Below, in pieces: positions 24,537-34,468 of a stretch of DNA of 64,000 nucleotides. Numbering within the stretch: position 1 is the first letter of the stretch; each line of letters begins with the position of its first letter. The notes beneath the pieces were generated by a model. That model was not told the DNA's origin. It was given only the letters and a program-made list of their open reading frames with translations, and ran no database searches. The translations under genes were made by a program, and so were the position numbers. This DNA comes from Fibrobacter sp. UWB4 (GTDB taxonomy: Bacteria > Fibrobacterota > Fibrobacteria > Fibrobacterales > Fibrobacteraceae): contig NZ_MWQI01000003.1 of the NCBI RefSeq assembly GCF_002210345.1, positions 248,001-312,000 of the forward strand, written 5' to 3'.

Positions 24537-25370
24537 ATGATACTCGAAGAATTTTACAAGCTGAACAACGGTCAACGTATCCCCAAAATAGCTCTAGGGA
24601 CGTGGCAGACGCCAAATGACGTGGCTGCAACCGTCGTTGCCTCCGCCATAGATGCGGGTTACCGCCATATCGATACGGCAATTGCCTATGAAAACGAGTC
24701 GGGGGTCGGCGCAGGTCTCAAAACGGCACTGAAATCGACTGGAATCCACCGTGAAAGCGTTTTTATCACGACGAAAATCCCTGCCGAAGTCAAAAATTAC
24801 GATGATGCGGTTCGCTGCATTCAGGAATCGATGGACCGCTTAGACGCGTTCCATATCGACATGATGTTAATCCATGCTCCGCGTCCGTGGACCGAGATGG
24901 GTTCAATCAGCGGAAATCGCTATTTTAAGGAAAATATCGAAGTCTGGAAAGCCCTCGAAGAAGCTTACGAGGCCGGCAAAATCCGAGCGATCGGCGTTTC
25001 TAACTTTGAAATTGACGACTTGAATAATTTGCTGGCGGGTGCCCGCGTGATACCTGCGGTGAACCAGATTCGCGTCCACATTGGACATGTGCCGACGGAG
25101 TTGATTGACTTCTGTGAACAAGCGGGAATCTTGGTGGAAGCGTATTCGCCGAATGCGACGGGGCGCCTCCTGAAGGTGCCGGAAGTTTGTGCGATGGCCG
25201 AAAAATACCATGTTACGGTGCCGCAGCTTGCAAGCCGCTTTGTTTTGCAGCTCGGACTTTTGCCGCTTCCAAAATCTGTGCATGAGGAGCGTATCCGCGA
25301 AAACGCTAAGCTCGATTTTGAAATCAACTCGAACGATATGGCGTCTCTGCTCGAAATCGAAGGATTGTAA
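24537..25370 (+). CDS. Aldo/keto reductase
   Basis: NADPH-dependent carbonyl reductase of the AKR superfamily (2,5-diketo-D-gluconate reductase-like). Catalytic tetrad visible: D46 and Y51 (DAGYRHIDTAIAYENE), K80 (TTKIP) and H113 (LIHAPRPW); cofactor region near LPLPKSV. 277 residues is normal. The ATG at 24537 has GAGG 6 bases upstream; a GTG four codons earlier would place that GAGG inside the gene. Physiological substrate unknown. Confidence 0.93.
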   Translation: MILEEFYKLNNGQRIPKIALGTWQTPNDVAATVVASAIDAGYRHIDTAIAYENESGVGAGLKTALKSTGIHRESVFITTKIPAEVKNYDDAVRCIQESMDRLDAFHIDMMLIHAPRPWTEMGSISGNRYFKENIEVWKALEEAYEAGKIRAIGVSNFEIDDLNNLLAGARVIPAVNQIRVHIGHVPTELIDFCEQAGILVEAYSPNATGRLLKVPEVCAMAEKYHVTVPQLASRFVLQLGLLPLPKSVHEERIRENAKLDFEINSNDMASLLEIEGL

Positions 25371-25422: not shown

Positions 25423-25577
25423 GTTGTTGTAAATATTTTGTGCGAATTTTGTTGTTTGTGAATGAAAAATTATTTATTGCGATGAAGTGTAATGTAAAAT
25501 AAAAATTATTTGTATTGTGTTGTAAATAAAATAAAGTTTTACTATACTTTGTATAACTTATTTGAAAGGAGAAAAAT

Positions 25578-26603
25578 ATGAATAAGTTGTTTGTTTTGAT
25601 TCCGCTAGCTGCAAGTATGTGCTTTGGTGCTAGAATTGGTGTTCTTAAGAATACGGGCAGTTGCCCTGGGGAACAGGTCCTTATAGATCTTGATGTTGAG
25701 GATAGCAACAACCATACGGGTGTTAAAAATAAAACGGACCCGAATCCTCCAGGAATTACTCTTGGTAGCCATGCCAAATTTACATATTGCGTCCTTAATG
25801 TAAACTCTCTTACTAGAGTTCCGTATAGTTATTTTGTGTTGAGGTTAGGCAATAAGTGCCCCACGGGGTCTTATGCGTTCTCTCATCATCATGATACGGA
25901 AGACTCTCGCAATAGAAATGGTCATAGCGGCAATATAAGCCCCAGTGTAGTCAATAGTAACGCTACTTTGGAATATTGCTATGTACCTAAAAATGACTCT
26001 TCTAAGGTGAAGTACCCTGTTGACATTAAGTATGGCGTTTTCTCAAGAGGCTCCTCGAGTATATCGAAAATCGCGCATTCGGAAATATTTATTGACGATG
26101 AAGATAGTAATAACTCGAATAGTGACGAATTCCATTTCTCGGCCTCGGATCTTGTAAGCCAAGATATAGACCATTCTCTTCAGTATCCTGAAGCGCAGGC
26201 CATTTATAACTTTATGATGGATATATATTCTCTGCTTTATTCAAGTCCGGATGACTTGCATAATACCACTTATCATGTTATCAAGTGGACTGGCACTGCA
26301 AATGATTTGAAGAAATCCTCCGTTGTGGAAGAATCCGTGCCGATGGTTGCCGCTGTTCCGACAGCTCCGGCTGTTAAGGGCTTGAACCGCAGTCTCGTTT
26401 CTGTTGAACTCAAGTCTGCTGGCGATGTGAAGGTTTCTGTTGTCGGTATCAACGGCGCGGTTATTGCAAATGTCACTGAAAAGAACCTCCAGCCGGGCGA
26501 TCACCAGATCAAGTGGAATTCTGGAATGATTCCGAGCGGCCGCTATATCGTGAAGATTGAACAGAACGGCATGGTGGACGCTAAGAATGTAATTTTGAAG
26601 TAA
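25578..26603 (+). CDS. Secreted DxEDSxN-motif protein, paralogue 1 of 4
   Basis: 341 residues, family not recognised. Signal peptide 1-17 (ending CFGA), then an IGVLKN core. Three acidic motifs are spaced along it: VEDSNN (40-45), DTEDSRNRN (106-114) and DDEDSNN (173-179), each D/E-rich followed by Ser and Asn, suggestive of Ca2+-binding turns. Four Cys in the mature core (29, 71, 94, 134) are conserved in paralogues and probably form disulfides. The last 80 residues (VSVVGINGAVIANV...SGRYIVKIEQNG...KNVILK) resemble a T9SS type A sorting domain. AAAGGAG lies just before the ATG. First of a tandem array, each gene with its own terminator. Confidence 0.75.
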   Translation: MNKLFVLIPLAASMCFGARIGVLKNTGSCPGEQVLIDLDVEDSNNHTGVKNKTDPNPPGITLGSHAKFTYCVLNVNSLTRVPYSYFVLRLGNKCPTGSYAFSHHHDTEDSRNRNGHSGNISPSVVNSNATLEYCYVPKNDSSKVKYPVDIKYGVFSRGSSSISKIAHSEIFIDDEDSNNSNSDEFHFSASDLVSQDIDHSLQYPEAQAIYNFMMDIYSLLYSSPDDLHNTTYHVIKWTGTANDLKKSSVVEESVPMVAAVPTAPAVKGLNRSLVSVELKSAGDVKVSVVGINGAVIANVTEKNLQPGDHQIKWNSGMIPSGRYIVKIEQNGMVDAKNVILK

Positions 26604-26632
26604 AATAAACGACTTCTTAATTAATTTTAATT

Positions 26633-26666
26633 AAAAGGCTCTTTGCTTGTGCAAAGGGCTTTTTTG
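26633..26666 (+). terminator. Terminator after paralogue 1
   Basis: AAAGGCTCTTTGC-TTGT-GCAAAGGGCTTTTTT. The same sequence, including 28 bases before it, follows paralogue 2. Confidence 0.9.
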
Positions 26667-26780
26667 TGTGCTTGTTATGTTCTGTAATTTTGTATGTGTG
26701 AATTTGTATAATTTTTTTTATTGTTAAAAATGAATTTATTTTGTTATATTGTTTGTATTGTTGTTTTAAGGAGAAAATAA

Positions 26781-27752
26781 ATGAATAAAATATATCCATT
26801 AGTATTGCTTGCTGCATCGATGAGCTTTGCAAAGCTTATTGGTTTCTTGAATGCTGAGGCTCCCTCGGGCTGGTGCGGTAATCCGTTTTCCATATTTATC
26901 GATACGGAAAATAGTAACGACCAAAGTGGTGTCCGTTTTGGTGATCTCGCTTCTTCAAAAGCGGGCGTGACGTTCCGTAATGGTGGCGTTGAATTTGAAT
27001 TTTGTACAGGAGACAGGGAGAGCTTGCCGCAAGCTAGGTTCGATTATGCGGTGCTGTCCTTGGACAACGAATGTCCTGCAGGGTCGTATAGGTATGGCCG
27101 TCGTCACGATACCCAAGATGGTGGGCGTAACTCGTCTACAGGATATGTAGGCGTTAATGAAGTGGGCAGCAATGTTACGCTTTATTTCTGCTACGTGCCG
27201 AAGAATGATTATGTTGCAGCGAAGTGGCCGTTCCATTGGAGCAATGGCCTTTTTGCCGATTTTAATGGAATACGTTCGTTTAATTATGAATTTTATATAG
27301 ATGATGAAGATAGCAACAATAAAAACAAATGGCTCGGAAAATCGTCTTTACCACTATATGTTCAAAATGGAATAGACGCGATTATGAATGGCTCTAAAAA
27401 TACAATGTACCGCGTGACTCGCTGGACCAGTCACATGTTCTATGACCTCTATAAGAGCGCTGCTGAAACTCCGGCTTCTTCTGAAAGTCCGCTCGTTGCT
27501 GCTGTTCCGTTTGCTCCGGCTGTTAAGGGCTTGAACCGCAGTATCGTTTCTGTTGAACTCAAGTCTGCTGGCGATGTGAAGGTTTCTGTTGTCGGAGTCA
27601 ACGGCGCAGTTCTTGCGAATGTTACCGAAAAGAACCTCCAGCCGGGCGATCATCAAATCAAGTGGAATTCTGGAATAGTCCCGAGCGGTCGCTATATCGT
27701 GAAGATCGAACAGAACGGCATGGTGAACGCTAAGAATGTAATTTTGAAGTAA
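26781..27752 (+). CDS. Secreted DxEDSxN-motif protein, paralogue 2 of 4
   Basis: 323 residues. Signal peptide MNKIYPLVLLAASMSFA, IGFLN core, and the same three acidic motifs in diverged form: DTENSNDQSG, HDTQDGGRNSS and IDDEDSNNKN. The four core Cys are kept. The C-terminal 80 residues are almost identical to paralogue 1, both in protein and DNA, while the core has diverged widely, as if the 3' end has been homogenised by gene conversion. Ribosome binding site AAGGAG precedes the ATG. Function unknown; cell-surface or secreted. Confidence 0.75.
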   Translation: MNKIYPLVLLAASMSFAKLIGFLNAEAPSGWCGNPFSIFIDTENSNDQSGVRFGDLASSKAGVTFRNGGVEFEFCTGDRESLPQARFDYAVLSLDNECPAGSYRYGRRHDTQDGGRNSSTGYVGVNEVGSNVTLYFCYVPKNDYVAAKWPFHWSNGLFADFNGIRSFNYEFYIDDEDSNNKNKWLGKSSLPLYVQNGIDAIMNGSKNTMYRVTRWTSHMFYDLYKSAAETPASSESPLVAAVPFAPAVKGLNRSIVSVELKSAGDVKVSVVGVNGAVLANVTEKNLQPGDHQIKWNSGIVPSGRYIVKIEQNGMVNAKNVILK

Positions 27753-27781
27753 AATAAACGACTTCTTAATTAATTTTAATT

Positions 27782-27819
27782 AAAAGGCTCTTTGCTTGTG
27801 CAAGGAGTCTTTTTTTTTT
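27782..27819 (+). terminator. Terminator after paralogue 2 (duplicate of the paralogue 1 terminator)
   Basis: AAAGGCTCTTTGC-TTGT-GCAAGGAGTCTTTTTTTTT; differs from the 26633 copy by a few bases. Confidence 0.85.
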
Positions 27820-28032
27820 GTTGTTGCGAATTTTTTTATTTTTAAAACTTTGTTTATGAAATTTTATTTAAAATATTTTGTTTGCTGATATGGAAGTTGC
27901 TTGATTTGATTTTTATGATACGTTGTGATACAACTTTTTATATGTAAGCTTTTTGTAGTGTTTTTAGCTTATTTACATTTACGTTTGTATAAATTATATT
28001 ATATGTACTTTTTAAAATAAAGGAGAAAAAGT

Positions 28033-29091
28033 ATGAAAAGTAAATATCTAGTAATCGCTTTGGCTTGCTTGACTAGCGCAAGCTTTGCAACAAGAATTGG
28101 TGTCTTGAAAAAAGATGCAAACTTTAAGTGCAAAGAACAAATCAAGATTGATCTTGATGTGGAAGATAGCCATAATAGGACGGGTGTTAAAAACGATACG
28201 GACCCGAATCCTCCAGGAATTTCTCTTGGTGGTCATGCTGTTTTTACATATTGTGCTTTGAACGTTAGTTCAATGCCGAAAATTTCCTATGATTATGCTG
28301 TTCTAGCATTGGATGAAGAATGTCCGGCAGGCACATACATGTTTATGCGTCATCATGATACAGAAGATTCGCATAATGCGAATTCTCATTCGGGAAATAT
28401 CTATCCTAATGTTGTGAATAGTAATGCGACATTGATTTATTGCTTTGTTCCTGCTGATGAATCTTCTAGCAAACAATTCCCGTCGTTTGATAAAAATAAT
28501 GGGGATAAATACGGGGTCTTTGCAAATCCTGATATGAAGAAGGTTAGCTCCAAAGTAAAGCATAGCGAAGTTTATATAGATGATGAAGACAATAGGAACG
28601 ACCATTGGGAATGGTATACGATGCAGTATTTGCCTATTGTTGTGGGCGGTGGGTTCACGCAAGAGGGTAATTCAGATTATTGGTGCTATCCGTCATCAAC
28701 GCCAAATCGTATTGTGAAGAAAATGAAAAATATTATGAATGGCGAAGATAATACGACGTATCATGTTGTCAAGTGGACGGGTGCTGCAAATGATTTGAAG
28801 AAGTCCTCCGTTGTGGATGAATCCATGCCGCTCGTTGCTGCTGCTCCGACTGCTCCTGCTATCAAGGGCTTGAACCGCAGTATCGTTTCTGTTGAACTCA
28901 AGTCTGCTGGCGATGTGAAGGTTTCTGTTGTCGGCATTAACGGCGCAGTTCTTGCAAATGTCACTGAAAAGAGCCTCCAGCCGGGCGATCACCAGATTAA
29001 GTGGAACTCCGGAATGGTTCCGAGCGGCCGCTATATCGTGAAGATTGAACAGAACGGTATGGTGAACGCCAAGAACGTGATCTTGAAATAA
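28033..29091 (+). CDS. Secreted DxEDSxN-motif protein, paralogue 3 of 4
   Basis: 352 residues. Signal peptide ending ASFA, IGVLKKD core. Motifs VEDSHNRTG, HDTEDSHNANSHSGN and IDDEDNRNDH; the segment between motif 1 and DPNPPGI is nearly the same as in paralogue 1, so these two are closest. Four core Cys conserved; two more Cys near the start and in WCYPSS. C-terminal sorting-type domain almost identical to the others. AAAGGAG precedes the ATG by 8 bases. Own terminator at 29120-29145. Confidence 0.75.
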   Translation: MKSKYLVIALACLTSASFATRIGVLKKDANFKCKEQIKIDLDVEDSHNRTGVKNDTDPNPPGISLGGHAVFTYCALNVSSMPKISYDYAVLALDEECPAGTYMFMRHHDTEDSHNANSHSGNIYPNVVNSNATLIYCFVPADESSSKQFPSFDKNNGDKYGVFANPDMKKVSSKVKHSEVYIDDEDNRNDHWEWYTMQYLPIVVGGGFTQEGNSDYWCYPSSTPNRIVKKMKNIMNGEDNTTYHVVKWTGAANDLKKSSVVDESMPLVAAAPTAPAIKGLNRSIVSVELKSAGDVKVSVVGINGAVLANVTEKSLQPGDHQIKWNSGMVPSGRYIVKIEQNGMVNAKNVILK

Positions 29092-29119
29092 TTTAAAAAG
29101 TTTCTTTATTCATTATCAG

Positions 29120-29145
29120 GTCCTATCCCTTAAAAGGGGTAGGAC
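29120..29145 (+). terminator. Terminator-like hairpin after paralogue 3
   Basis: GTCCTATCCC-TTAAAAG-GGGTAGGAC, 9-10 bp stem; T run short (TTCTACG). Confidence 0.6.
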
Positions 29146-29336
29146 TTCTACGTTTATTTTGAGCGTTTTGTATAAAAAATATCGTAGATGTATTATGGGT
29201 GTGTTATGACGATTTTTTTTAAGGAAATAAATTGCTTGTAATAAAATTGTCTGTAATAATTTGTAGATGATGTATTGAATATTAATCTGTCTTTGTTATA
29301 TTTGCAGCATTGTTGTTCTTTGATAAGGAGAGAAAA

Positions 29337-30767
29337 ATGAAAAAAATATATCTGTTGGTCCTGTTGGCCGTTTCTATGAGTTTTGCTCTAACGATAGAGG
29401 GGAGTAATTTTTCTTATGCGAAATGTAGCTTCAGTTCATATTGCGATTATTCCCCTTATATTAGATTGTCGAATAAAGGCGGTGCTGAAATTCGGGGATT
29501 TAGAATGTATGTGTATTTTGCGAATTATGGCCGAGATGCTATGCCTCGAATTAACAGAGGAGACCGTGGCTTTACGTATTGGTTAGAAAAACGTTCTGCG
29601 TATGTGTATAGAATTGTACTTGATTTTGGTAAAACGACTACGATTCCTGCGAACGGAAAGTTTCCGGAGGATGGAGTTTTCCCTGGAGATGCTCCTTCCT
29701 ATAACCATATGTTCTTCTCTTTGGATATGGACATTAGGTGGTTTGATAGTCATGACAAAAGTGAACAGTACGGTTGGTACCCGTTCCCTACGGGAGAATC
29801 GTTTGACAATATAGTTGTGGAATCTTTGGATGGTAAGATTTTATATGGTAAACATCCTGAAGTGTTGAGAATTGGTGTGCTGAAAAAGAATTCAGGGGAT
29901 AAATGCAATGAAGAAGTTTCGATTCGGCTTGATACGGAAGATTCGAGTAATAGAAATGACATTGACGGTGATTCAAATCCTCCTGGAATTAAGGTTGATA
30001 AGCATGGTGTAAAATTTACATACTGTGTTCTTTATAGAAATGAATTGCCTAGAGCGCCTTTTGATTATGCTGTGCTTCAACTGGACCAAAGGTGCCCCGA
30101 TACTTCAAATCATGTTGTTCGTCGTCATGATACGGAGGATTCAGATAACAATAATGGTTCGTCAGGCTTTATTTGGCCTAATGAAGTTGGGAGTAACGCT
30201 TCTTTGAGGTATTGCTTTGTGCAGGCTGGCAAAAATGCACCGAAGAAATATCCGTTTGATTCGAAGTATGGTATATTCGCTGTAGCGGAAGGTTTTAAAA
30301 ATTTGACTCGCAGTGAAATCTATGTGGATGATGAAGACAGTAATAATAACAATAAATGGAATTATTATGGTGCTGAAGATGCCGTGAAAAAACGTATAAA
30401 TAAAATCATGAGTGGGTCTGATAACACTACTTATCATGTTGTCAAATGGAATGGAGGCTCTTTAGCAAAGTCTACAGAAGTTGCTGACAATTCTGTAAGT
30501 AGCGCTTATGTCGCAGCTGCGCCGCTTGCTCCTGCTATCAAGGGCTTGAGCCGCAGTATCGTTTCTGTTGAACTCAAGTCTGCTGGCGATGTGAAGGTTT
30601 CTGTTGTCGGCATTAACGGTGCGGTTCTTGCAAATGTTACCGAAAAGAGCCTCCAGCCGGGTGTTCATCAGGTTAAATGGAACTCCGGAATGGTTCCGAG
30701 CGGCCGCTATATCGTGAAGATCGAACAGAACGGCATGGTGAATGCAAAGAATGTGATTTTGAAGTAA
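29337..30767 (+). CDS. Secreted DxEDSxN-motif protein, paralogue 4 of 4, with extra N-terminal domain
   Basis: 476 residues from the ATG at 29337, which has AAGGAG 9 bases upstream (an ATG at 29310 lacks one). After the signal peptide (ending SFA) there is an extra domain of about 160 residues with PYIRLSNKGGAEIRGFRMYVYFANYG, a pattern reminiscent of CBM3-like cellulose-binding modules; this resemblance is tentative. Then the common core begins at RIGVLKKNSG, with LDTEDSSNRND, HDTEDSDNNNG and VDDEDSNNNN motifs, four Cys, and the shared C-terminal sorting-type domain. The domain addition suggests the core is an adaptable surface module. Confidence 0.75.
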   Translation: MKKIYLLVLLAVSMSFALTIEGSNFSYAKCSFSSYCDYSPYIRLSNKGGAEIRGFRMYVYFANYGRDAMPRINRGDRGFTYWLEKRSAYVYRIVLDFGKTTTIPANGKFPEDGVFPGDAPSYNHMFFSLDMDIRWFDSHDKSEQYGWYPFPTGESFDNIVVESLDGKILYGKHPEVLRIGVLKKNSGDKCNEEVSIRLDTEDSSNRNDIDGDSNPPGIKVDKHGVKFTYCVLYRNELPRAPFDYAVLQLDQRCPDTSNHVVRRHDTEDSDNNNGSSGFIWPNEVGSNASLRYCFVQAGKNAPKKYPFDSKYGIFAVAEGFKNLTRSEIYVDDEDSNNNNKWNYYGAEDAVKKRINKIMSGSDNTTYHVVKWNGGSLAKSTEVADNSVSSAYVAAAPLAPAIKGLSRSIVSVELKSAGDVKVSVVGINGAVLANVTEKSLQPGVHQVKWNSGMVPSGRYIVKIEQNGMVNAKNVILK

Positions 30768-30853: not shown

Positions 30854-31795
30854 TTAGTCGTTGACCATCTTTTCGTAGAATTTGCGGTAGTGGTCGCGGT
30901 CTTCGGTCTTGCGGACGGCAATGGCGTCTTGCGGATGGCGGTTGAGCATGCCCGTGATCATCTGCGGGATGATGTAGCCCCATTCGTACTTCTGCTGCAA
31001 CGGGAGGAACAATTCTTCGTAGGCGTCGAGAACCGGGCGCAAGTCGTACTTCGGATTCTTGAGGAAGCTGAGGAGGAGTTCGGTGGTGCAGTTGCCTGCG
31101 CCACGGCCCATGCCGGACACGGAACCGTCGAGGTAATCGACGTGGTTGATGATGGCCTGGATTGTGTTGCTGAAGGCGAGTTGCTGGTTGTTGTGGCCGT
31201 GGAAGCCGAACTTCTTGTTCTTCACGATGCCCTTGTAGCGGGCGAGTTCCTTGTCGATGTCTTCCTGGTAGAAGGCGCCGAAACTATCGACGAGGTAAAG
31301 CACGTCGGCCTTGCATTCTTCGTTGACCTGGTGGAGCGCTTCGTCAAGTTCCGGGCCGCGGTCGCGGCTTACGGCCATGATGTTGAGCGTTGTTTCGTAG
31401 CCCATGTCATGGAAAGCGTTCACCATGCTGATGCCCTTGTCGATGTTCTTGACGTAGCTTGCGACGCGGAACATCTGGTATGGACTTTCGGAAGCGGGCT
31501 TCACGGCGTCCATGTTGACGCGGCCCACGTCAGCCATCACGGCCATCTTCATCTTGGAATCGATGCCGTCCTTGACTTTCCAGAGCAGGTCGTCTTCGCA
31601 GAATTTCCACGGACCGTATTCCTTGGGGTCGAAGAGTTCCGGGGAGTTCTTGTAACCCATTTCCATGTAGTCTACGCCGGCTGCGGAAAGGAGGGTGTAC
31701 AATCTACGCACGAATTCAAGAGAAAAATCGTGCTTGTTGACGAGACCGCCATCGCGGATCGTGCAGTCGAGAACTTTAATGGTTTCGTAGTACAT
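30854..31795 (-). CDS. HMGL-like / 4-hydroxy-2-oxovalerate aldolase-like protein
   Basis: A DRE-TIM metallolyase-superfamily TIM barrel. The start VLDCTIRDGGLVNKHDFS contains the R-D-G catalytic/metal segment, YMEMGYKNSPE follows, and FGFHGHNNQQLAFSNTIQAI carries the metal-binding His-x-His; GMGRGAGNCTTELLL matches the HMGL/aldolase GxGRxxGN motif. 313 residues. Such proteins perform aldol cleavage or condensation of 2-oxo acids. It stands alone, without dehydrogenase or hydratase partners, so the pathway is not evident (some homologues sit in polysaccharide gene clusters). Confidence 0.85.
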   Translation of the reverse strand: MYYETIKVLDCTIRDGGLVNKHDFSLEFVRRLYTLLSAAGVDYMEMGYKNSPELFDPKEYGPWKFCEDDLLWKVKDGIDSKMKMAVMADVGRVNMDAVKPASESPYQMFRVASYVKNIDKGISMVNAFHDMGYETTLNIMAVSRDRGPELDEALHQVNEECKADVLYLVDSFGAFYQEDIDKELARYKGIVKNKKFGFHGHNNQQLAFSNTIQAIINHVDYLDGSVSGMGRGAGNCTTELLLSFLKNPKYDLRPVLDAYEELFLPLQQKYEWGYIIPQMITGMLNRHPQDAIAVRKTEDRDHYRKFYEKMVND

Positions 31796-32305: not shown

Positions 32306-34468
32306 ATGCATATATATAAGCTTTCCCCAATTCTCTCTGCCGCGGTTCTTTTGAGCGCGGGTGTCGCTTCTGCCGAAACCAAGTTTTTCTACAATCAGGT
32401 CGGTTATGATGTCGGTCAGCCGATTTCTGTAATTGTCAAGAGCGATAATCTTTCGGATGGTGCCGAATTTAGCGTGATGTCGGGCGGAACTGCGGTCAAG
32501 ACGGGTAAGTTGTCGGCGGGTTCGAATCCGGACAACTGGCTGAATAATGGCAAGTTTTACGTGGCGGACTTGACGGGCCTTACGGCGGGCAAGTACACGC
32601 TCCAGGTTTCCGAGAATGGGCAGCCGCAGAATTCGGGCGAGTTTACTGTGAGCGAAAACGCTTTGGCTGCAAATACGCTTGCATCAGTGCTCAATTACTT
32701 TTATGATGACCGTGCCGATGACCCGACGGTTGAGGGCTGGGACAAGAGCATGGGAATTTATAATTCCGGCAAAAAGGTGGATGTTCATGGCGGCTGGTAC
32801 GATGCCAGCGGTGACGTGAGCAAATACCTTTCGCATTTGTCTTATGCGAACTATTTGAATCCGCAGCAGATTCCTTTGACGGTCTGGTCGCTTGCTTTTG
32901 CTTCGGAACGCATCCCGAAGTTGCTTGGCTCGACTGCGACAAAGGCGAAAACGGCTGATGAAGCGGCTTACGGTGCGGATTTTTTGGTGCGCATGCTCTC
33001 TGAAGAAGGTTTCTTCTACATGACGGTTTTTGATAACTGGGGTTCGCCACTGGGCAAGCGCGAAATTTGCGCATTCTCTGGTTCTGATGGTATCAAGAGT
33101 GCTGATTACCAGACGGCGTTCCGCGAAGGCGGTGGCATGGCGATTGCCGGTCTCGCAAGCGCTGCTAGGCTTCAGCTGAAGGGCGACTTTACAAGCGAAC
33201 AGTATTTGGCGGCGGCTGAAAAGGCTTACAAGCATTTGTCCGAAAAGCAGAGCATTGGCGGCGATTGCGCTTACTGCGATGACCACAAGGAAAATATCAT
33301 CGACGATTACACGGCGCTTTTGGCGGCGACGGAACTTTATGCCGCTACAAAAAAACAGGAGTATTTGGAAGATGCTTATGACCGTGCCGAACATTTATCT
33401 TCTCGTGTCAGTGTAGATGGCTATTTCTGGAGTGACGATGCTAAGACACGCCCGTTTTGGCATGCAAGTGATGCGGGGCTCCCGTTGGTGGCCCTTGCTC
33501 GTTATAGTGAGGTTGTTGGCGCTATTGACGAAGATGCCGGCATAGAAGTTCATGGTCAGCCATTCCCTTATTGGGCTTGCGTTACTATGATTGGTGGTGG
33601 TTGCGTGAACGAATCTATCGATAATGTTCGTAATGCCATTAGGTCTCATTTTGACTGGCTTGTTAAAATTACGAATAAGGTTGATAACCCGTTTGGTTAT
33701 GCCCGCCAGACTTACAAGACTCAGGACAAAATAAAGGATGGATTCTTTATCCCGCACGATAACGAAAGTAATTATTGGTGGCAGGGTGAAGATGCTCGCC
33801 TTGCAAGTCTTTCTGCGGCGATAATGTACGCAAATCGCATTATTGACGGCGAATATAGGAATGTTACCACGAGTGATGTGCAAAAATATGCTACGGATCA
33901 GCTCGACTGGATTTTGGGCAAGAACCCGTATGCGACTTGCATGATGTATGGCAAGGGAACGAAGAACCCGCAAAAGTATGATGGTCAGTCTGAATATGAT
34001 GCAACGCTTGAAGGCGGTATTGCAAACGGCATTACCGGCAAGAATCAGGATGGTTCAGGCATTGCATGGACGGATGACGGCGTTGCTGCAGTGGGCTTTG
34101 ATTCCATGAAGGAATCTTGGCAGGTGTGGCGCTGGGATGAACAGTGGCTTCCGCATAGCACATGGTACTTGATGGCGCTCGTGGAACGCTATGATGAAGT
34201 GACAACGCCTGTGAAATTCTCTGTTGGACTTTCGAAGTCTGTGGCTATGGCGAAGTTCGGCATGTCGCTCGTAGACAATACGCTTTCGCTCCATTTGCCG
34301 AGTTCTGTCGTGGGCAAGTCCATCAAGATTCTTGATGTAAAGGGCAATGTGCATATGCAGAAGACTGCCCAGAGCATGAATGAATCGCTCAACGTCAGCA
34401 CTCTCAAGAGCGGGCTATACCTCGTGCAAGTTCAAGGCTTTGCCGCTAAGAAGTTTGTTGTGAAGTAA
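32306..34468 (+). CDS. Secreted GH9 cellulase with Ig-like domain and sorting-type C-terminus
   Basis: Endo- or exo-acting cellulase. Signal peptide 1-23 (ending ASA). An Ig-like CelD-N type domain at about 25-115 opens FFYNQVGYDVGQP, as in theme-B GH9 enzymes. The (alpha/alpha)6 catalytic domain spans about 120-640: the catalytic Asp region is GGWYDASGD at 162-170, with one residue more than the usual GGWxDAGD; the LGKNPYATCMMYG segment near 537 matches the GH9 LGxNP motif; the proton donor is probably the Glu in QGEDARL (about 494). The last 70 residues (IKILDVKGNVHMQ...SGLYLVQVQG...KKFVVK) resemble a T9SS sorting domain. 720 residues. Confidence 0.88.
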   Translation: MHIYKLSPILSAAVLLSAGVASAETKFFYNQVGYDVGQPISVIVKSDNLSDGAEFSVMSGGTAVKTGKLSAGSNPDNWLNNGKFYVADLTGLTAGKYTLQVSENGQPQNSGEFTVSENALAANTLASVLNYFYDDRADDPTVEGWDKSMGIYNSGKKVDVHGGWYDASGDVSKYLSHLSYANYLNPQQIPLTVWSLAFASERIPKLLGSTATKAKTADEAAYGADFLVRMLSEEGFFYMTVFDNWGSPLGKREICAFSGSDGIKSADYQTAFREGGGMAIAGLASAARLQLKGDFTSEQYLAAAEKAYKHLSEKQSIGGDCAYCDDHKENIIDDYTALLAATELYAATKKQEYLEDAYDRAEHLSSRVSVDGYFWSDDAKTRPFWHASDAGLPLVALARYSEVVGAIDEDAGIEVHGQPFPYWACVTMIGGGCVNESIDNVRNAIRSHFDWLVKITNKVDNPFGYARQTYKTQDKIKDGFFIPHDNESNYWWQGEDARLASLSAAIMYANRIIDGEYRNVTTSDVQKYATDQLDWILGKNPYATCMMYGKGTKNPQKYDGQSEYDATLEGGIANGITGKNQDGSGIAWTDDGVAAVGFDSMKESWQVWRWDEQWLPHSTWYLMALVERYDEVTTPVKFSVGLSKSVAMAKFGMSLVDNTLSLHLPSSVVGKSIKILDVKGNVHMQKTAQSMNESLNVSTLKSGLYLVQVQGFAAKKFVVK

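Follow-up and report, generated by a model that had tools for sequence, protein, structure and literature searches.

An array of four secreted proteins with an ApeC-like core at a variable genomic site in Fibrobacter: a probable set of surface adhesins

ApeC, a domain that binds sugars and is known from immunity in invertebrates, is the C-terminal domain of apextrin. In animals, the domain comprises about 200 amino acids with eight cysteines and three DXED motifs, whose function is stated to be unknown (PMC8361754), and it binds peptidoglycan and agglutinates microbes (PMC8361754, PMC9585378). Bacterial ApeC-like domains have only four of the eight cysteines of animal ApeC (PMC8361754), and were described as single-domain proteins (Li et al. 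2021, Mol Phylogenet Evol 155:107009, as cited in PMC8361754). The literature that we searched contained no mention of apextrin or ApeC in Fibrobacter. To our knowledge, no ligand is known for any bacterial ApeC-like domain.

By what means Fibrobacter, a gut bacterium that digests fiber, keeps hold of crystalline cellulose with no cellulosome is an open problem. The genome paper on F. succinogenes S85 reported no CBM1, CBM2 or CBM3 in cellulases, and described the fibro-slime protein Fisuc_2031 near the GH9 protein Fisuc_2033 (PMC3079729). On the basis of proteomics, type IX secretion system (T9SS) tails have been proposed for Fibrobacter enzymes, including cellulases (PMC6851124). In this report, we analyze a 64,000-nucleotide stretch of Fibrobacter sp. 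UWB4 DNA (the window; positions 248,001 to 312,000 of contig NZ_MWQI01000003.1), from a genome in which no dockerin (PF00404) was found.

The window contains four adjacent genes that share a signal peptide, a core of about 200 amino acids and a type IX secretion-like tail (Table 1), with open reading frames where the original prediction had placed them. The cores are 39 to 57% identical in amino acids and 57 to 67% in DNA, and a profile of the four picks up only these genes when run against the whole 3.58-Mb genome (E 1e-96 to 1e-103). Given the shared architecture, these identities and the genome-wide search, we regard the family as real and not a product of chance. For gene 4, the ATG at 29337, preceded by AAGGAGAG, is a likelier start than the TTG at 29310. 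Each gene has its own promoter-like site about 29 to 35 bp upstream (a consensus match only), and hairpins that by eye resemble the stem-loop after gene 2 follow genes 1, 3 and 4. Separate transcription of the four genes is therefore suggested.

Table 1. Features of the array and of its borders, in window coordinates
Feature	Position	Strand	Description or evidence
Aldo/keto reductase	24537..25370	+	Left border of variable site; Pfam, synteny
Promoter-like site before gene 1	25520..25548	+	Consensus match only
Gene 1	25578..26603	+	341 aa; short form: signal peptide, ApeC-like core, T9SS-like tail
ApeC-like core, gene 1	25632..26294	+	PF16977 E 1.7e-4; core residues 66-166 = profile 79-187
T9SS type A-like C-terminal tail, gene 1	26376..26603	+	TIGR04183 19-21 bits, cutoff 23
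Promoter-like site before gene 2	26721..26750	+	Consensus match only
Gene 2	26781..27752	+	323 aa; short form; core most diverged
ApeC-like core, gene 2	26835..27431	+	Profile of four cores
T9SS-like tail, gene 2	27525..27752	+	Equivalent of gene 1 tail
Terminator-like stem-loop after gene 2	27782..27813	+	
Promoter-like site before gene 3	27972..28000	+	Consensus match only
Gene 3	28033..29091	+	352 aa; short form; insertion after third DxED motif
ApeC-like core, gene 3	28093..28782	+	Profile of four cores
T9SS-like tail, gene 3	28864..29091	+	Equivalent of gene 1 tail
Promoter-like site before gene 4	29275..29302	+	Consensus match only
Gene 4	29337..30767	+	476 aa; signal peptide, CBM3-like, ApeC-like, T9SS-like tail
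CBM3-like domain, gene 4	29388..29864	+	Profile vs PDB; Foldseek; VIA-align
ApeC-like core, gene 4	29868..30455	+	AlphaFold pLDDT 96; conservation among homologues
T9SS-like tail, gene 4	30540..30767	+	Equivalent of gene 1 tail
HMGL-like enzyme	30854..31795	-	Right border of variable site; Pfam, synteny
GH9 cellulase	32306..34468	+	T9SS tail over cutoff, 32.9 bits

The original prediction recognized no family in these proteins. Judged by sequence, their core is a bacterial domain distantly related to ApeC. Gene 1 has a sub-threshold match to the Pfam ApeC family (PF16977). When 38 homologous cores were gathered and scanned singly against Pfam, ApeC was the top family, with 14 cores matching at E<=0.1 (best 9.4e-5), versus three for the runner-up, and none of 10 shuffled or reversed control cores matched ApeC. 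Those matches shown with positions share one register (profile positions 30 to 187 of 208), except that of the L040 homologue, which aligned out of register. In these scans, a counterpart of the profile search that had been proposed as a check, all ApeC matches fall below the Pfam gathering cutoff (best 22.8 bits versus 26.5). Because no member reaches this cutoff, we file the core as ApeC-like rather than as ApeC. The majority consensus of the cores matched no Pfam family, ApeC included, and an NCBIfam scan detected no Fibrobacter paralogous domain in the core. A search of PDB by sequence gave one match to the core (E 0.59), which was rejected as chance.

The predicted core features were confirmed. 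Four cysteines are kept in 95 to 100% of the 38 homologues, and three D/H-x-E-D motifs recur at an even spacing of about 65 residues; in gene 4, these are core residues 13, 53, 76 and 116, and 22-25, 88-91 and 154-157, respectively. Three DXED motifs within about 200 amino acids are as in ApeC generally, and four conserved cysteines, not the eight of the animal form, are as in the bacterial ApeC-like domains (defined in PMC8361754). Likeness to animal ApeC in sequence consists of profile matches that are specific but sub-threshold. The core could instead be an unrelated fold, exclusive to Fibrobacter, that came to resemble ApeC in its DxED motifs and cysteines by convergence. The uniformly sub-threshold scores fit such an origin, as does a PF16977 search that found no match in this genome and one weak match in 167 genomes of the phylum. 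We nonetheless consider convergence improbable, because the cysteines, a CP dipeptide and the DxED-N motifs coincide in order over about 200 amino acids, because the shuffled and reversed controls were clean, and because four-cysteine ApeC-like domains have already been reported in bacteria (PMC8361754).

Structure prediction, another check that had been proposed, gave a confident, almost all-beta model of the core (AlphaFold2 run on the alignment of 38 rows; pLDDT 96, pTM 0.92), in which each DxED motif is located at or just beyond the end of a long strand. Neither Foldseek against PDB (best E 0.36) nor VIA-align identified a solved relative of this model, and Foldseek found no match in a library of viral models (BFVD). 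The absence of a structural match does not prove that the fold is new. The search procedure itself was working, since for the N-terminal domain of gene 4 it returned the correct fold (see below).

Within the gene 4 core, residues 1-57 and 64-121 are 36% identical (P 4.6e-7), with both cysteines and the DxED motif in register. This likeness suggests an internal duplication, in which case the four cysteines would represent two equivalent pairs. A strict three-fold repeat was rejected, as the third repeat shares just the DxED motif. We tentatively raise the possibility that ApeC is an ancient lectin fold, so far undescribed in structure, that consists of pseudo-repeats of a single unit with a cysteine pair and a DxED motif. 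In bacteria, the fold might act as an exchangeable adhesin on the cell surface, joined to modules that bind cellulose and encoded at a locus that is diversifying. Animals might have received it by descent or by acquisition, and then turned it to use in immunity. With their confident model, the compact bacterial cores make the function of the DXED motif testable.

Gene 4 has an additional N-terminal domain that the original prediction missed. Residues 18-176 (about 160 amino acids, between the signal peptide and the core) form a domain common to 18 other aligned homologues; the other three genes in the window lack it. A profile of this domain, searched against PDB, identified the CBM3 modules 2ylk (E 4.4e-4), 3zqx and 4c8x (all at E 4-5e-4). 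The AlphaFold model of the domain (pLDDT 83) matched the CBM3b structure 4b96 by Foldseek (E 8.9e-5), and VIA-align superimposed it on CBM3 with Z 11 and rmsd 3.0 over 127 aligned residues; the first 28 VIA-align rows consist of CBM3 modules or of GH9 enzymes that bear CBM3. By both structural comparisons, then, the domain has a CBM3 fold. Pfam CBM_3 matched no aligned member of the domain and found nothing over its cutoff in this genome, and its blindness to such modules may be the reason that they went unlisted. The genus has further large proteins with related domains. One locus in the same genome (L153:1892-5209, minus strand) encodes a 1105-amino acid protein that by eye is alpha/beta-hydrolase-like and has CBM3-like domains below Pfam detection; many relatives have open frames of about 1200 amino acids similar to this protein.

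The sorting-type C terminus that had been predicted is also present. The C-terminal 75 amino acids of the four genes are near-identical (90 to 93% in DNA), and score 19.1 to 21.4 bits against TIGR04183 / Por_Secre_tail, just under the cutoff of 23 for assignment as T9SS type A. The genome encodes the T9SS translocon protein SprA (1394 bits). Surface display of the array proteins is likely, given tails close to TIGR04183, the tail of the neighboring GH9 cellulase, SprA and the T9SS tails proposed for other Fibrobacter proteins. Tails are 82 to 93% identical within a genome, versus 68 to 86% between most genomes; one pair of genomes, G022 and G054, is an exception at 95%. Because tails are more alike within genomes than between most of them, we suggest that tails are homogenized within genomes while cores diverge. 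The tail, as in the four genes of the window, may thereby act like a handle for recombination. At another locus (L112:6934-8806, genome G069), the tails of two ApeC-like genes appear frameshifted, either because the genes have truly decayed or through an error in assembly.

An aldo/keto reductase gene borders the array on the left; on the right is a gene for an HMGL-like enzyme, followed by a GH9 cellulase gene. In related Fibrobacter, the same borders enclose differing content. The site is empty in G007 (157 bp between borders), contains a short remnant-like protein in G045 (with a gap of similar size in G071) and a fibro-slime protein alone in G001 (with a gap of the same size in G046). Elsewhere, fibro-slime is accompanied by one (G042, G054), two (G067, G069) or three (G075) ApeC-like genes, and G066 has at least five such genes, at a contig end. 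Fibro-slime proteins were identified with a model in G001 and G075, and were read from sequence in the other genomes. Border proteins are mostly 80 to 98% identical between species, versus 34 to 50% for the cores. This is a fixed site with variable content, and the Fisuc_2031/Fisuc_2033 pair of S85 presumably occupies the same site. The genome studied here has seven fibro-slime matches elsewhere and none at the array. Two proteins deserve mention: a short protein at the variable site (L106:9995-10735, plus strand) resembles the C-terminal part of fibro-slime and is perhaps a deletion remnant, and a 506-amino acid protein in G046 (L070:3848-5368, plus strand) has caspase/clostripain-like motifs (CHGS, ESCHSG) and adjoins a CBM3-ApeC gene.

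Within the genus, 23 of 80 genomes have the core (64 matches, one to nine per genome), as do 25 of 167 genomes and three of 40 genera in the phylum. A scan of genome contigs, with patterns that reach close relatives only, found related loci only in Fibrobacter; plasmids (tblastn) and viral contigs gave no relatives. In a poorly resolved tree of the cores, CBM3-bearing, short and dual forms are clustered, with a few interchanges among them. Three loci (L024, L040, L041) have two ApeC-like domains in one protein. Long open frames of 842 to 860 amino acids with an ApeC-like domain were noticed at L036, L046, L047 and L064. The protein at L064 (3183-5711, minus strand; 842 amino acids) combines two CBM3-like domains with DUF6973 (E 1.3e-21) and an ApeC-like domain at its C terminus, and lacks a T9SS tail. 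To serve mainly as components of a structure or coat that bind Ca2+, rather than as receptors, would suit the array proteins in that they are secreted and have three acidic, Asn-rich loops per core. This function is very improbable, in that patchy presence in the genus and fast divergence of the cores at a fixed site are ill-suited to a structural coat.

On balance, and with moderate confidence, we conclude that the array encodes T9SS-secreted, lectin-like adhesins with a bacterial ApeC-like core, the long form of which has a CBM3-like module for cellulose; the array is best read as a rapidly diversifying adhesin set. The proteins would be exported by Sec, would pass through the T9SS with removal of the tail and would then be displayed on the outer membrane. 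There, the acidic loops may allow the core to bind a glycan, perhaps together with Ca2+, and the long form would hold cellulose through its CBM3-like module. Paralogues might prefer different glycans, so that each strain would possess an adhesin set of its own for plant fiber. Binding of glycan by the cores is proposed from the activity of animal ApeC, which at such a distance is only an analogy, and from the cellulolytic context: fibro-slime proteins, which are cellulose adhesins, occur at the same site in relatives, and a GH9 cellulase gene is close by (PMC3079729). Against the adhesin interpretation are the sub-threshold ApeC scores, the absence of half of the animal cysteines, the out-of-register L040 match, the core consensus without an ApeC match, the want of a known ligand for bacterial ApeC-like domains, three genes of four without the CBM3-like module and tails under the T9SS cutoff.

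The ligand could also belong to other microbes. If the cores bound peptidoglycan or another cell-wall glycan, they might function in co-aggregation or in attack on neighboring cells instead of binding fiber, and the CBM3-like domain would merely hold them on the fiber biofilm. Animal ApeC domains tested so far do attach to microbes, for the most part through Lys-type peptidoglycan (PMC8361754, PMC9585378), and some homologues fuse ApeC to DUF6973. However, the array sits in a cellulolytic context (GH9, fibro-slime, CBM3-like), and what animal ApeC binds may not carry over to a homologue this distant, so we regard microbe binding as unlikely. The earlier suggestion of a surface toolkit, perhaps for plant fiber, is strengthened by the CBM3-like domain, the T9SS-type tail, the GH9 cellulase and the occurrence of fibro-slime at the site; overall, the interpretation offered in the original prediction is partly supported.

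The array proteins differ in some respects from the systems that they resemble. Like T9SS type A cargo, represented by the BTD-FPm-1 tail of Fibrobacter enzymes, the array proteins have this type of tail, in the same genome and beside a GH9 enzyme, although their tails fall slightly under the curated cutoff. With the fibro-slime adhesins (TIGR02148), they share a genomic site, secretion and a proposed role in fiber adhesion, whereas the domain is unrelated, and fibro-slime is absent from the site in the window genome. The gene 4 module resembles CBM3 (family 3b) in fold and by a weak profile match, but is below Pfam CBM_3 detection and is not attached to a cellulase; its binding of cellulose is putative. 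Here, CBM3-like modules are found on non-catalytic, probably surface-displayed proteins, beside a domain related to animal immune lectins. Compared through the Pfam profile, the cores and animal ApeC (PF16977) are alike in length (about 200 amino acids), three DXED motifs, CP and cysteine positions, secretion and mostly colinear, sub-threshold HMM matches. The Fibrobacter proteins differ from the animal proteins in having four cysteines rather than eight, a T9SS-like tail and a CBM3-like partner, and in lacking MACPF or CUB partners. They share a bacterial origin and four cysteines with the bacterial ApeC-like domains of Li et al. 2021 (as cited in PMC8361754). In contrast to the single-domain proteins described there, Fibrobacter proteins have a T9SS-like tail, a CBM3-like module, tandem ApeC-like pairs or DUF6973.
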